A stretch of DNA of 64,000 nucleotides, taken from positions 62,001 to 126,000 of the forward strand of contig NZ_KB913017.1 of the NCBI RefSeq assembly GCF_000383975.1, read 5' to 3'. Origin of the DNA: Natronorubrum tibetense GA33. Lineage in GTDB: Archaea; Halobacteriota; Halobacteria; Halobacteriales; Natrialbaceae. Position numbers and translations under genes: made by a program. The notes beneath the pieces were generated by a model. That model worked only from the letters and a program-made list of their open reading frames with translations. It made no database searches and was not told where the DNA came from. Numbering within the stretch: position 1 is the stretch's first letter; every line of letters begins with the position of its first letter. This document shows, in pieces, positions 39,155 to 55,423 of this stretch.

Positions 39155-40429
39155 TCAGGCCAGCGCGCTCGCGGCCCGGATCAGGCGCTCCTCGCCGAAG
39201 GCCGGACCGACGAGTTGTAGCCCGACGGGGAGGCCGTCGGTCTCGCCGGCCGGCACCGAAATCGCGGGTAAGTCGGCGAGATTCACGGGGACTGTGTTCG
39301 CGTCGGCCAGATACATCTGGAGCGGATCGTCGAGGCTCTCGCCCAACTCGAACGGCGGGACCGGCATCGTCGGCGACGCGAGGACGTCGGCTTCCGAAAG
39401 CGCCTCGTCGAAGTCCTGTTTGACCCAGGCCCGTGCGTCCTGGGCCTTTTTGTAGTACTTGTCGTGGTAGCCCGCCGAGAGGGCGTACGTCCCGAGCAGG
39501 ATGCGGCGTTTGACCTCGTCACCGAAGCCCTCTTTGCGGGTCTGGGCGAAGCGCTCGTTCCAGTTGCCCTCGGCGTCGCTCGAGTGCCCGTAGCGAACGC
39601 CGTCGAACCGCGCGAGGTTCGAGGAGGCTTCGGACATCGCGATGACGTAATAGGCCTCGACGGCGTGTTCGACCGAGGGCAGCGAGACCTCGTGGTACTC
39701 CGCGCCGCGGTCCTCCAGGTCAGCAATGGCGTCCCAGAACGTCTCGACGACGCCGTCGTCGGCCCCGTCGAGCAGTTCCGTCGGAACACCGATGGAGAGC
39801 CCGTCGACATCGCCGGTGGCGGCGTCGGCGTAGCTCACCTCGTCCTCGAGCGGCGTCTCGCGAGTCGTCGCATCGCGTTCGTCGTGTCCCGCGATCACGT
39901 CGAGCAGCGCTGCGGCGTCCTCGACGGTTTCGCCAAAGGGACCGATCTGCTCGAGACTGTTGCCGTAGGCGACCAGTCCGTATCGCGAGACCAGTCCGTA
40001 GGTGGGTTTGATTCCGACGACGCCGCAGAACGCGGCGGGGCAACGAATCGAGCCGCCCGTGTCGGAGCCGAGCGCGACGTCGGCTTCGCCCGCGGCGACG
40101 GCGGCGGCCGAGCCACCGGAGGAACCGCCGGGGACGTGGCCGGGTGCGGCGGGGTTTTCCGTCGAGCCGAAGTGGGAGGTCTCGGTCGTCGACCCCATTC
40201 CGAACTCGTCCATGTTCGCCTTGCCGACGATGGTCGCGCCCGCCTCTTTCAGGCGACTCACGACCGTCGCGTCGTACGGCGGGACGTACGCTCCGAGCAT
40301 CTTCGATCCGCAGGTCGTCCGGACGCCTTCGGTCGAGATGTTGTCCTTGATGGCGACCGTCGTCCCGGCGAGCGGACCGTCGTCGTCGCCGTCGATCGTC
40401 TCCTCGGTGATGAAGATATCGCCGCTCAT
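39155..40429 (-). CDS. gatA: Glu-tRNA(Gln)/Asp-tRNA(Asn) amidotransferase subunit A
   Basis: A 424-residue amidase-signature enzyme. The catalytic Ser-cisSer-Lys triad is visible: Lys28 in TVAIKDNIS, Ser103 in PGGSSGGSAAA and Ser127 in GSDTGGSIRCP. It hydrolyses glutamine and channels ammonia to GatB for transamidation of misacylated tRNA. It follows gatC after a two-base gap, so both are one operon. gatB is not in the window. Haloarchaea also hold GatDE for Gln-tRNA, so this GatCAB may mainly serve Asn-tRNA. Confidence 0.95.
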   Translation of the reverse strand: MSGDIFITEETIDGDDDGPLAGTTVAIKDNISTEGVRTTCGSKMLGAYVPPYDATVVSRLKEAGATIVGKANMDEFGMGSTTETSHFGSTENPAAPGHVPGGSSGGSAAAVAAGEADVALGSDTGGSIRCPAAFCGVVGIKPTYGLVSRYGLVAYGNSLEQIGPFGETVEDAAALLDVIAGHDERDATTRETPLEDEVSYADAATGDVDGLSIGVPTELLDGADDGVVETFWDAIADLEDRGAEYHEVSLPSVEHAVEAYYVIAMSEASSNLARFDGVRYGHSSDAEGNWNERFAQTRKEGFGDEVKRRILLGTYALSAGYHDKYYKKAQDARAWVKQDFDEALSEADVLASPTMPVPPFELGESLDDPLQMYLADANTVPVNLADLPAISVPAGETDGLPVGLQLVGPAFGEERLIRAASALA

Positions 40430-40431
40430 GA

Positions 40432-40707
40432 TCAGGAAACGTTCGGCCCCTTGAAGTAGCCGTCCTCGGTCTCAGATGCGTTCTCGAGTGCCGCCTCGCG
40501 GTCGAGGGAGTCGCGCTCCTCGTCCGGGCGCATCACGTTCGTCAGGTCGGCCTCGCGGTCGACCTCGGGCACCTCGTCCAGCGTCTCGAAGTACTCGAGA
40601 ATGTCCGCGAACTGTCGCGTGAACTGGTCGACCTCGTCGTCTTCGAGGTCGACGCGAGCCAACTCCGCGACGTGGCGGACCTCCTCGGCACTGACGGCGT
40701 CGCTCAT
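40432..40707 (-). CDS. gatC: Glu-tRNA(Gln)/Asp-tRNA(Asn) amidotransferase subunit C
   Basis: A 91-residue protein beginning MSDAVSAEEVRHVAELARVDL, the GatC signature, followed by QFTRQFADILEYFETLDEV and the C-terminal LRPD-like NVMRPDEER. GatC is the belt-like stabiliser that wraps GatA and GatB. The ATG at 40707 is favoured over a longer frame whose upstream part is not acidic. It is first in the gatC-gatA operon and divergent from tfb. Confidence 0.93.
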   Translation of the reverse strand: MSDAVSAEEVRHVAELARVDLEDDEVDQFTRQFADILEYFETLDEVPEVDREADLTNVMRPDEERDSLDREAALENASETEDGYFKGPNVS

Positions 40708-52333: not shown

Positions 52334-53467
52334 TCAGGGTGCTGTCGGCGGCTCCGGATCGTCCTCGAGCAGCGAGCGGACGTACTTCGTCACGTGGTCG
52401 TCGATTCGGCGCTTGTAGCCGGCCTGTCGGGCGAGGCGGTCGAGTTCGCGAGCGACGAGGCTACCGTACTGGACAGCCTTCTTCTCGCGGGAGGCGACCT
52501 CCTCGGGGAGGGAGTCTGCGGCGACGCGACGGAGCGCGCGTTTGCGCTCGGTCTCGTCGGCCAGCAGTTCGTCGGGCAGGCGGAGCGCGGCATCGACGAC
52601 GGTGTCGTGGAGGAGGGGAGCGACCGGCTCGAGACCGGTCGCTTCGATCGCGTGGACGTCCCGCGGAAGCTGCTCGGAGAGCGTCGCGATCTGTTCGCGG
52701 ACGGCCTCGCGGGTCGTCTCCGCTTCGACGCGGTGGTCGAGACGGACGACCTTCTCGTAGCCGCCGAACAGTTCGTCGGCACCCTGGCCCACCGCCAGCG
52801 CGTCGAAGCCGTCGGCGGCGATGCGCTCCCCGACGAGATATAGGGGGAGGGCGATCTGAATGTCCATCGCGTTCGTACGGCCGGTCGCGCGAGCGAGGTC
52901 CGGCACCGCTCCCTCGAGGTCGGCCGGCTCGAGATCGACGACGGTCAACTCCCGCCCCATCGCCTCGGCGGCCGTCCGCGCGGCCTCGATGTCGTGGCAG
53001 TCGGGGAAACCGACGACGTACAGGGGGGCGTCGAGTAACTCGGCGACCAGCGCCGAGTCGACGCCACCCGAGAAGGCGACGGCGATATCGCGGTCGGTGT
53101 CGAGCGCGTCGTCGGCCGCGGTTTCGATCGCCGCGGCGAGTTGCTCGAGTGCGGCGTCGTGGTTCGTCTCCGGCTCGGGATCGGGGAGCGTCCAGCGACG
53201 TTCTGGTTCGGCGTCGGGGATCGTCAGGTCGAGCGCGTTCCCGGCGGGGAGGAGTGTCGGGTTCTCGAGGGACGTCGGTTCGAATGCCCAGTCGGCGGCT
53301 GGTGTGTTACTATCTCTCTCGCGGTCGACGTACACGGGCACGCGGCCGAGTACGTCGCGGACAAGCGTGCCGTCGAGTTCGCCGGCGAAACCGGTCGTTC
53401 CCGGCAGCGGATCGCCGCTCTCGAGGGCGTCGCGAATGATGTCGGGGTCGGCGCCGCGAAGCATCAT
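52334..53467 (-). CDS. asparagine-synthetase-like PP-loop protein
   Basis: A 377-residue protein related to the asparagine synthetase superfamily. The ATP-pyrophosphatase loop is VAFSGGVDSALVAELL (Ser133-Ser138). Later parts VGQGADELFGGYEKVVR and RLPDELLADETERKRALRRVA follow AsnB. The N-terminal half is a reduced Ntn-like domain (GTTGFAGELDGTLVRDVLGRVPVYVD) without a Cys2 nucleophile, so glutamine hydrolysis is unlikely. ATG at 53467 overlaps the PHP gene stop (ATGATG). The substrate may therefore be something other than aspartate, with another ammonia donor or no amidation. It is co-transcribed with the PHP gene. Confidence 0.85.
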   Translation of the reverse strand: MMLRGADPDIIRDALESGDPLPGTTGFAGELDGTLVRDVLGRVPVYVDRERDSNTPAADWAFEPTSLENPTLLPAGNALDLTIPDAEPERRWTLPDPEPETNHDAALEQLAAAIETAADDALDTDRDIAVAFSGGVDSALVAELLDAPLYVVGFPDCHDIEAARTAAEAMGRELTVVDLEPADLEGAVPDLARATGRTNAMDIQIALPLYLVGERIAADGFDALAVGQGADELFGGYEKVVRLDHRVEAETTREAVREQIATLSEQLPRDVHAIEATGLEPVAPLLHDTVVDAALRLPDELLADETERKRALRRVAADSLPEEVASREKKAVQYGSLVARELDRLARQAGYKRRIDDHVTKYVRSLLEDDPEPPTAP

Positions 53468-54150
53468 TGGAAGAGCCCCAGCACGCCGTTTCGTACGCGG
53501 CGGGTGACACCTCCTGCAGCCTGTCGGAAGCTGATATGCCACGGCGTTCGTTTGCCCTCGACGGTGGTCTTCCCCTCGCGAACCGCCTCGAGAATGGCGT
53601 CGGCGGAGCGGTCGTCCGCCTCGACGCGGGTGACAGCCTGACCGACCATTTCGCTAATGTGGGCGTCGCTGCCGGCGGTCATCGGCAGGTCGTGGGACTT
53701 AGCGAACCGTTCGGCCTGTCGGTTCGCGCGGCCGGTAAGCAGCCGCGAGTTGTAGACCTCGATCGCGTCGCCCTCGGCGAGTTGGTCCCGAGAGATGCGG
53801 GCCATCACGCCGTGGCGCGACTCCTGGAAGGGGTGGGGGATCACCGCGAGTCCGCCTTGTTCCCAGATGGCCTCGAGCGTCGATTCGTAGGAGAGGCCGG
53901 GCGGCACAGCGTCCTCGAGTCCGAAGCCGAGGATGTGGCCGGCCTTGCTCGAAATCTCCATGGCGGGGATGCCGACCAGTCCGTACTCGGGGGCGCGTTC
54001 GGCGGCCTCGAGGCTCGCGTCGATCTCGTCGTGGTCGGTGACGGCGATCGCGTCCAGACCGACGGCCTGGGCCTGTTCGAGGATCAACTCGACCGAGTCT
54101 CGGCCGTCGTAGGAGAGCGCGGAGTGAGCGTGGAGTTCAACCGACAGCAC
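53464..54150 (-). CDS. PHP-domain metal-dependent phosphoesterase
   Basis: A 228-residue protein of the PHP family. The metal-binding motifs are HAHSALSYDG (His7, His9), TDHDEIDAS, EISS, IPHPF and GSDAHI. These residues match the three-metal site of YciV/TrpH-like 5'-nucleotidases, but substrates vary (nucleotide, RNA or phosphohistidinol). The ATG at 54150 gives the family's normal length. Its stop overlaps the start of the asparagine-synthetase-like gene, so the two are translationally coupled. Confidence 0.88.
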   Translation of the reverse strand: MLSVELHAHSALSYDGRDSVELILEQAQAVGLDAIAVTDHDEIDASLEAAERAPEYGLVGIPAMEISSKAGHILGFGLEDAVPPGLSYESTLEAIWEQGGLAVIPHPFQESRHGVMARISRDQLAEGDAIEVYNSRLLTGRANRQAERFAKSHDLPMTAGSDAHISEMVGQAVTRVEADDRSADAILEAVREGKTTVEGKRTPWHISFRQAAGGVTRRVRNGVLGLFQ

Positions 54151-54262: not shown

Positions 54263-54709
54263 CTACTCGTCGATGTCGAGTTCGACCAGCTCGAGCGATC
54301 GGTCGAGGTGACAGACCTCGTGTGGTGGGTCGCCGAGGATGTTGCGAATGCGGTACTCCTCGTCGAACTCGACGGCGTCGGGTTCGCAGTACTCGTGGCT
54401 CGGGCACTCGACGTAGGGACAGGGACCGGAGAGACTCGCTTTGCTGCCGGCGAACGCTCCCTTGGAGGGAATGTTCGCACGAACGGAGACGGGTTCGACC
54501 TCGACGGCGCGGACGCCGCCGTCGTGCATGGCGCACTCGAGGGTCTGGGCGTTCTCCCGGACGGACGTGATCTGGTACTTGGTATCGGGCTGGAGGTTGA
54601 GACACTGACTGCGATACGGACAGCCGGCGCAGGCGTCGGCCTCGCCGTGGTAGACGAACTCGGTTCCCGGGTCGGCGAGCCGGGTTCCGACGAGCGTAAC
54701 GGTCGACAT
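54263..54709 (-). CDS. UPF0179 family protein
   Basis: A 148-residue archaeal protein starting MSTVTLVGTRLADPGTEFVYH. It has conserved cysteine groups CAGCPYRSQC and CPYVECPSHEYC, plus a Cys near the end (HEVCHLD), enough to bind a zinc or iron-sulfur centre. This is the UPF0179 family, common in Archaea and uncharacterised. The ATG at 54709 matches the conserved start. It stands alone. Confidence 0.88.
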   Translation of the reverse strand: MSTVTLVGTRLADPGTEFVYHGEADACAGCPYRSQCLNLQPDTKYQITSVRENAQTLECAMHDGGVRAVEVEPVSVRANIPSKGAFAGSKASLSGPCPYVECPSHEYCEPDAVEFDEEYRIRNILGDPPHEVCHLDRSLELVELDIDE

Positions 54710-54800
54710 ACGGATCTCTACTTCGCGACGCCGGTTAAGACTCACGTGTCGACTTGTCGACCAACGGATCGCCGGCCGCCGCGCTCGTCGCGATGGCCGG

Positions 54801-55253
54801 CTAGGCGAGTCCGCTCTCGGAATCGCCGTCTCCGACCGTGCCCGTCAGCTCGTCCAGTCGATCGAAGTACGCCTCGCGGGGCACCTGATAGAGTCCGCGG
54901 TAGTCGACCTCGCCGGCGTCGAACGCTTCGGCGAGGTCGAGCGCACGCTCGAGCGCCTCGCCGCGCGTCTCGAACCGTTCGTTGTCGGCGGAGACGTCCG
55001 GCTCGAGATAGAGGGTGACGTACCAGTCGTTGGTCGGACGGCTGGTCGGGTTAGTTCCGGGGCGACGGGTGCGTTTTCCGTGGGTCAGGTACAGTGTGGG
55101 GAGACAGGCCGCCGGAAAGTCGTCGGCGTTGAAAACGTCCGGTCGATACGCGAGCACGAGGCGGCCGTCGTCGCCCTGACTCCAGACGGTCCACGCGTCG
55201 GGGAGCGACGAACGCAGCGATTCGGGATCCGCGTCGGTCTCCGAGTTCGTCAT
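54801..55253 (-). CDS. small haloarchaeal protein of unknown function (DUF5820-like)
   Basis: A 150-residue protein from the ATG at 55253 (MTNSETDADPESLRSSLP). It contains AWTVWSQGDDGRLVLAYRPD, NDWYVTLYLEPDVSADNERF and GEALERALDLAEAFDAGEVDYRG, an alpha-beta pattern I associate with the haloarchaeal DUF5820 family. No catalytic motif is clear. A longer in-frame start at 55343 is less acidic and unlikely. Confidence 0.72.
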   Translation of the reverse strand: MTNSETDADPESLRSSLPDAWTVWSQGDDGRLVLAYRPDVFNADDFPAACLPTLYLTHGKRTRRPGTNPTSRPTNDWYVTLYLEPDVSADNERFETRGEALERALDLAEAFDAGEVDYRGLYQVPREAYFDRLDELTGTVGDGDSESGLA

Positions 55254-55423
55254 ACGTGGCAGTAGGTCGGGCGGTCCTAAAGCCTCGTCGTCGCTGGGAC
55301 TCGAGGCAAAGGTATGCGGTGTGTTTACATGACGAGCGCGCACGAGCGAAACCGGCCGCTGCAGGCCCGGAACTTATGCCGTCGATCGACTAAAATGTGG
55401 TGTGGTAGCGTGGGACAATATAC

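Follow-up and report, generated by a model that had tools for sequence, protein, structure and literature searches.

The beta-lactam and carbapenam synthetases derive from AsnB-type asparagine synthetases and have no glutaminase activity; they keep the whole N-terminal domain, have Tyr at position 348 (E. coli AsnB numbering) and are encoded by secondary-metabolite genes. In archaea, an AsnB-like protein fused to Dph6 (DUF71) has already been described; in the portion of PMC3541065 at hand, the AsnB part is proposed as an ammonia source, and a reviewer asks what the PP-loop of this AsnB-like part does. The portion of PMC8305020 at hand gives H. volcanii dph6 as a separate gene, HVO_1077. For the gene pair analysed here, an AsnB-like protein (AsnL) and the PHP-family metallohydrolase encoded next to it (hereafter PHP), we found no description in the open-licence literature.

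The window, i.e. the whole stretch of DNA analysed, comprises 64,000 nt of Natronorubrum tibetense GA33 and carries the AsnL–PHP pair on its minus strand, with the following features:

52334..53467, minus strand: AsnL, predicted AsnB-type PP-loop amide ligase without the glutaminase half (377 aa, ATG start; PF00733 E 5.3e-34)
53464..54150, minus strand: PHP-family metallohydrolase (228 aa, GTG start; PF13263 E 3.6e-22, PF02811 E 5.1e-9)
53464..53467, minus strand: ATGA overlap of 4 bases, AsnL start within PHP stop (same 4-base overlap in 61/101 relatives, 1-base in 21)
53168..53467, minus strand: what is left of the AsnB glutaminase (Ntn) domain, AsnL residues 1-100 (the part preceding E. coli position 71 is gone)
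53054..53071, minus strand: PP-loop SGGVDS, AsnL residues 133-138 (SGG, D137 and S138 in 101/101 haloarchaea)
52757..52789, minus strand: GQGADELFGGY, AsnL residues 227-237 (Gln at the E. coli AsnB Glu348 position, by alignment to 1ct9)
52463..52483, minus strand: KKAVQYG clade signature, AsnL residues 329-335 (its first Lys is the counterpart of E. coli Lys449)
54124..54132, minus strand: PHP HxH metal motif, H7 and H9 (101/101)
53659..53670, minus strand: PHP SDAH metal motif, D162 and H164 (101/101)
40438-40695, minus strand: gatC (tblastn E 3e-19), ~11.6 kb downstream of AsnL
39164-40390, minus strand: gatA (tblastn E 9e-140), same strand as AsnL

Three claims of a sequence-only reading of this DNA could be confirmed at the locus: the AsnB-like protein has the PP-loop SGGVDS, its start overlaps the PHP stop (ATGA), and its glutaminase half is degenerate and without Cys2, a loss that takes in the whole first ~70 residues and not the Cys alone. 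The AsnL start is the ATG at 53467, not the GTG at 53542 of the longest open reading frame. Genes for UPF0179 and DUF5820 (54263-54745 and 54801-55343), two families of no known function, precede PHP on its strand; these and amphi-Trp were considered as partners of the pair and rejected, being near it in the closest relatives only.

AsnL matches the Asn_synthase family (PF00733, 118.9 bits; cut-off 21) and stays below the curated cut-off of the asparagine synthase model TIGR01536 (120.1 bits against 267.1), and the Dph6 models PF01902 and TIGR03679 gave no match to it at E ≤ 1. AlphaFold2 models of AsnL and PHP were each built from 43 rows (the window plus 42 haloarchaeal loci). The AsnL model has a mean pLDDT of 94.5, and its residues 1..369 align on residues 71..503 of E. 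coli AsnB (1ct9; VIA-align, Z 32.5, 356 residues aligned). The next structural matches are beta-lactam synthetase, human ASNS and carbapenam synthetase. According to this model, the glutaminase domain lacks ~70 N-terminal residues, including the Cys nucleophile, and no Cys start was found among the haloarchaeal AsnL sequence starts at 101 loci. The ATP side is intact, as SGG, D137 and D231 (the equivalent of E. coli D351) occur in 101/101 sequences and K329 (E. coli K449) in 100/101, the remaining row being gapped. The position of E. coli Glu348 is occupied by Gln (Q228) in all 101.

To define the distribution of AsnL, we searched an even sample of 391 haloarchaeal genomes from a larger group. 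AsnL was matched in 356, comprising 353 matches at E ≤ 1e-60 and three weak ones (G159, G238, G375); it was counted as missing from 38, i.e. 35 genomes without any match and the three with weak matches only. We then read 101 AsnL loci (27 named loci and 74 from genomes of 71 genera, with some genomes in both sets), and PHP lay directly upstream of AsnL, on the same strand, in every one. Conservation of the pair across haloarchaea had been set beforehand as a test of the sequence-only reading, and on this point the reading held. With starts chosen by script, the gap between the two genes was -4 in 61 loci, -1 in 21, -7 in one and 1 to 22 in 14, the last four being 95, 71, 38 and -76; thus, 82/101 pairs overlap by 4 or 1 bases. 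We consider the observation of the two genes and their pairing more than chance because of this upstream position in all loci and the strength of the domain matches (Asn_synthase E 5e-34, PHP_C E 4e-22, PHP E 5e-9). The translational coupling of PHP to AsnL would date from the ancestor of haloarchaea and would let the two proteins be synthesised together.

PHP itself is more widespread than the pair. Its profile matched all 67 genomes searched, among them 23/23 AsnL-lacking haloarchaea (E of 1e-111 or lower in 19 of these, weaker or fragmented matches in four). AsnL was absent from 40 loci around PHP, 20 in AsnL-lacking haloarchaea and 20 in non-halophiles. Since PHP is present in AsnL-lacking haloarchaea and, apart from AsnL, in methanogens, it is older than, and independent of, the pairing. 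In haloarchaea, PHP is faced by purL in 44/74 loci with AsnL and in 17/20 without it. In non-halophiles, a dihydropteroate-synthase-like gene (TIGR00284) is near PHP in 14/20 loci (L257-L276), often in divergent orientation. This gene hints that PHP may have a pterin-linked role in methanogens, and a folate or methanopterin phosphatase was noted as a possible identity of PHP. The order PHP-AsnL-gatC-gatA, on one strand and within 6 kb, was found in 34/74 haloarchaeal loci, with one further locus having gatC only (35/74 for gatC), and PHP-gatC-gatA occurs in 14/20 loci of AsnL-lacking haloarchaea.

The PHP protein belongs to the PHP superfamily by two models (PF02811, 37.1 bits, cut-off 26.4; PF13263, 78.1 bits, cut-off 21.3). 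It had been described as a phosphoesterase, which we treat as a putative role only: the sole above-cut-off model naming a function is that of the CehA/McbA metallohydrolase domain (NF038032, 108.7 bits against 80), which does not fix the substrate. This family is named for carbamate-type hydrolases. The RNase AM model NF047791 gave 42.3 bits against a cut-off of 375. Nine residues are invariant in 101/101 proteins (H7, H9, D15, H40, E65, H72, H106, D162 and H164), a set that we take to be metal ligands. The predicted structure (mean pLDDT 89.8) is nearest to the solved folds of BVU_3505, TM0559, PsfC, BAD_1165, EndoQ and RNase AM (Z 21.9 to 17.2), and the fold neighbours also include 2yb1, the structure of a protein with AMP and phosphate. 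A conserved basic helix ends the protein (53467-53568), with a net charge of +0.20 per residue over 34 residues as the mean of 101 proteins. Such a tail in an acidic proteome was counted towards an RNA or nucleotide substrate; as proof of RNA binding it was rejected as weak, basic windows being common (20/45 open reading frames of this proteome).

The archaeal clade whose haloarchaeal form is AsnL consists of ATP-pyrophosphatases of the AsnB type; it is old, and its genes are usually present in a single copy. The AsnL profile matches 375/392 genomes of the phylum, most of those outside the class at E below 1e-30. In a tree of 71 rows, 60 sequences (haloarchaeal AsnL together with gat-linked and Dph6-linked relatives) were separated from 11 other archaeal AsnB by a branch with support of 100/100, and haloarchaeal AsnL formed one group (100/99). 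The signature K[KRQT]xxQYGS is common to AsnL and its Dph6-fused relatives, and KK..QYG serves as a signature of the clade. Gene neighbours were read at 50 outgroup loci (20 + 30), and since the 30 have short flanks the counts are minima. gatC and gatA adjoin the AsnL relative in at least 20/50 loci, with gatB in at least 10 and topA in at least nine of these where the stretch reaches. dph6 is fused to the relative in at least 10 and adjacent in at least three of the 50 loci, purB is near it in at least 11, and at least one of gatCA, dph6 or purB is near it in at least 36. Curated models applied to example loci confirmed gatC, gatA, gatB, purB, Dph6 and PurL; Dph6 examples scored 291 and 265 bits with TIGR03679 (cut-off 197), and fused Dph6 parts were over the cut-offs of both PF01902 and TIGR03679. 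PHP was beside the AsnL relative in 0/50 outgroup loci.

Lineages within the clade differ in their glutaminase domain, which some keep whole, some have in decayed form and some lack (outgroup loci L207-L226 and L326-L355). Of the members with a Cys start, 14/15 retain the Arg of ExRxP[FY]LD, against 8/34 of those without one, which argues that loss of this Arg follows glutaminase loss and not substrate. At the Glu348 position, the AsnB–Dph6 fusions (L335, L340, L342, L343, L345, L347, L348, L350, L354, L355) have Ser, Asn or Leu. Glu replaces Asp351 in 7/13 rows of the Dph6-linked group. Given these changes, some of the AsnB halves may be inactive.

We propose, with a probability of roughly 0.4, that AsnL is an ammonia-dependent, adenylating amide ligase of the AsnB type that is tied to amidations of the translation apparatus. 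AsnL would adenylate a carboxylate with ATP, releasing PPi, and free ammonia rather than glutamine would then displace AMP to leave an amide. The carboxylate would belong to the translation apparatus and be handled alongside two known archaeal amidations, those of Asp-tRNA(Asn) by GatCAB and of EF-2 diphthine by Dph6. The GatCAB and dph6 context of the clade fits such a tRNA or translation link better than it fits a free-standing amino-acid gene. PHP probably acts on RNA or a nucleotide, which may or may not be the molecule that AsnL modifies.

The leading single candidate substrate is the Elp3 product 5-carboxymethyluridine (cm5U) at tRNA position 34, which AsnL would convert to ncm5U or cnm5U. 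The enzymes for cnm5U and for the step from cm5U to ncm5U are given as unknown, and cnm5U is reported from haloarchaea, Methanococcus maripaludis and M. jannaschii, in the portion of PMC7694415 at hand; that of PMC11323500 reports cnm5U from Thermococcus kodakarensis, and the portions of the cnm5U literature at hand name no AsnB-like enzyme. This gap, the presence of cnm5U in haloarchaea and other archaea and the finding of Elp3 in 67/67 genomes led us to the candidate. In its specific form, in which AsnL amidates (and perhaps also dehydrates, like QueC-type PP-loop enzymes) Elp3-made cm5U34 across Euryarchaeota, joined in haloarchaea by a PHP enzyme on RNA, we regard the idea as unlikely. Elp3 is found with or without AsnL, so its co-distribution was dropped as uninformative and lends the cm5U link no phyletic support. 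If the wobble reading were true, the ties to GatCAB and Dph6 would join three amidations of the archaeal translation machinery.

The main competitor is that AsnL is an ammonia-dependent asparagine synthetase, turning aspartate into free L-asparagine, and that the gatCAB neighbourhood reflects a common asparagine theme. A gatCAB context is shared by asparagine metabolism itself and so counts against a non-asparagine product, and AsnL has the whole AsnB synthetase fold, the PP-loop and the D351 and K449 equivalents. AsnA was found in 0/30 genomes searched and AsnB over the TIGR01536 cut-off in 16/33; the N. tibetense genome has none over this cut-off, and in G664, G496, G522 and G416 an AsnL-clade member is the only protein above it. 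In two AsnRS-bearing genomes, G407 and G416, the clade member has an intact Cys start, keeps its glutaminase and lies beside gatCAB, and no other AsnB- or AsnA-type candidate was found, which fits a synthetase of free asparagine. However, GatB is present in 63/63 genomes (split in one) and AsnRS exceeds its cut-off in only these 2/63; therefore transamidation can provide Asn-tRNA in nearly all, and their translation does not depend on free asparagine, although most of them keep AsnL. Fusion or adjacency to Dph6 in 13/50 outgroup loci also speaks against asparagine synthesis, which would moreover leave PHP without a role. E. coli AsnB reportedly needs a carboxylate at position 348, where AsnL has Gln, but the 11 other archaeal AsnB have Asp (five), Gln (five) or Met (one) there, so this Gln does not rule out aspartate. 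As proofs of a changed substrate we accordingly dropped the Glu348 to Gln exchange, the loss of Arg325, which is missing from other archaeal AsnB too, and the loss of the ExRxP[FY]LD Arg, which follows that of the glutaminase. Judged from sequence, the AsnL residues do not settle the choice between asparagine and another product, and the earlier statement that the pair serves something other than ordinary asparagine synthesis is neither proven nor disproven. Overall, we consider an asparagine synthetase somewhat doubtful. Nanohaloarchaea that are auxotrophic for amino acids and make few of them keep an AsnB, which may or may not belong to the AsnL clade (PMC10266531, portion at hand); we count this in favour of the amide ligase of translation.

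The remaining explanations turn on PHP or on the loss of the glutaminase. In the sequence-only reading, one nucleotide, tRNA or small metabolite is modified in two steps, by AsnL and PHP in succession. Its tRNA option agrees with the gatCAB and dph6 context, and the constant pairing, the frequent overlap and the RNase AM and 2yb1 fold neighbours would suit a shared pathway; PHP as an obligate second step does not stand, given its presence in all 23 AsnL-lacking haloarchaea, its absence beside outgroup AsnL relatives and the TIGR00284 gene near it instead in most non-halophile loci. We therefore rate two steps on one molecule as quite improbable. Similar objections meet the idea that PHP supplies ammonia to AsnL as an amidohydrolase replacing the lost glutaminase domain: the coupling does occur in a lineage whose AsnL lost that domain, and a carbamate-type substrate would match the CehA/McbA assignment, but many non-halophile members also lack the glutaminase with no PHP beside them, and PHP persists without AsnL, making this explanation far-fetched. 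A last possibility, that AsnL merely binds nucleotides, in a degenerate or regulatory role, and has no amide-ligase chemistry, would account for the lost glutaminase and for the loss of the gene in 38/391 genomes, but is very unlikely in view of the invariant ATP-side residues.

About nine tenths of haloarchaea and most of the phylum keep AsnL. Its Pfam match would probably lead to annotation as a plain asparagine synthase, although nearly all tested genomes can make asparagine on tRNA. We conclude from sequence comparison that AsnL represents a conserved putative amide-ligase family with a haloarchaeal branch coupled to PHP, and that it possibly serves translation as an amide-forming enzyme that has gone unrecognised. 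If AsnL does amidate a translation component, it would fill the known gap of the cnm5U/ncm5U enzymes (PMC7694415, portion at hand). The natural losers of AsnL within haloarchaea make its function open to comparison by mass spectrometry.

Set against known systems, PHP shares its fold with TM0559 (2anu), BVU_3505 (3e38), PsfC (7rty) and the PHP domain of RNase AM (7ug9), and we count the invariant HxH, H40, E65, H106 and SDAH as likeness to the solved PHP proteins; it differs from them in its conserved basic C-terminal tail and in a score of only 42 bits, against 375, with the RNase AM model. With E. coli AsnB (1ct9; COG0367/TIGR01536), AsnL shares the synthetase domain fold, SGGxDS and the equivalents of D351 and K449, but it has no counterparts of residues 1-70 and no Cys nucleophile, carries Gln for Glu348 and falls below the TIGR01536 cut-off. 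The AsnB–DUF71 (Dph6) fusions found here, of the kind reported from Methanohalophilus and Methanosalsum (PMC3541065, portion at hand), belong to the same clan as AsnL, whereas haloarchaeal AsnL is unfused and has Gln where the fusions have Ser, Asn or Leu at position 348. The beta-lactam and carbapenam synthetases match AsnL in structure (Z 26-30), but, unlike them, AsnL is near-universal in its class.
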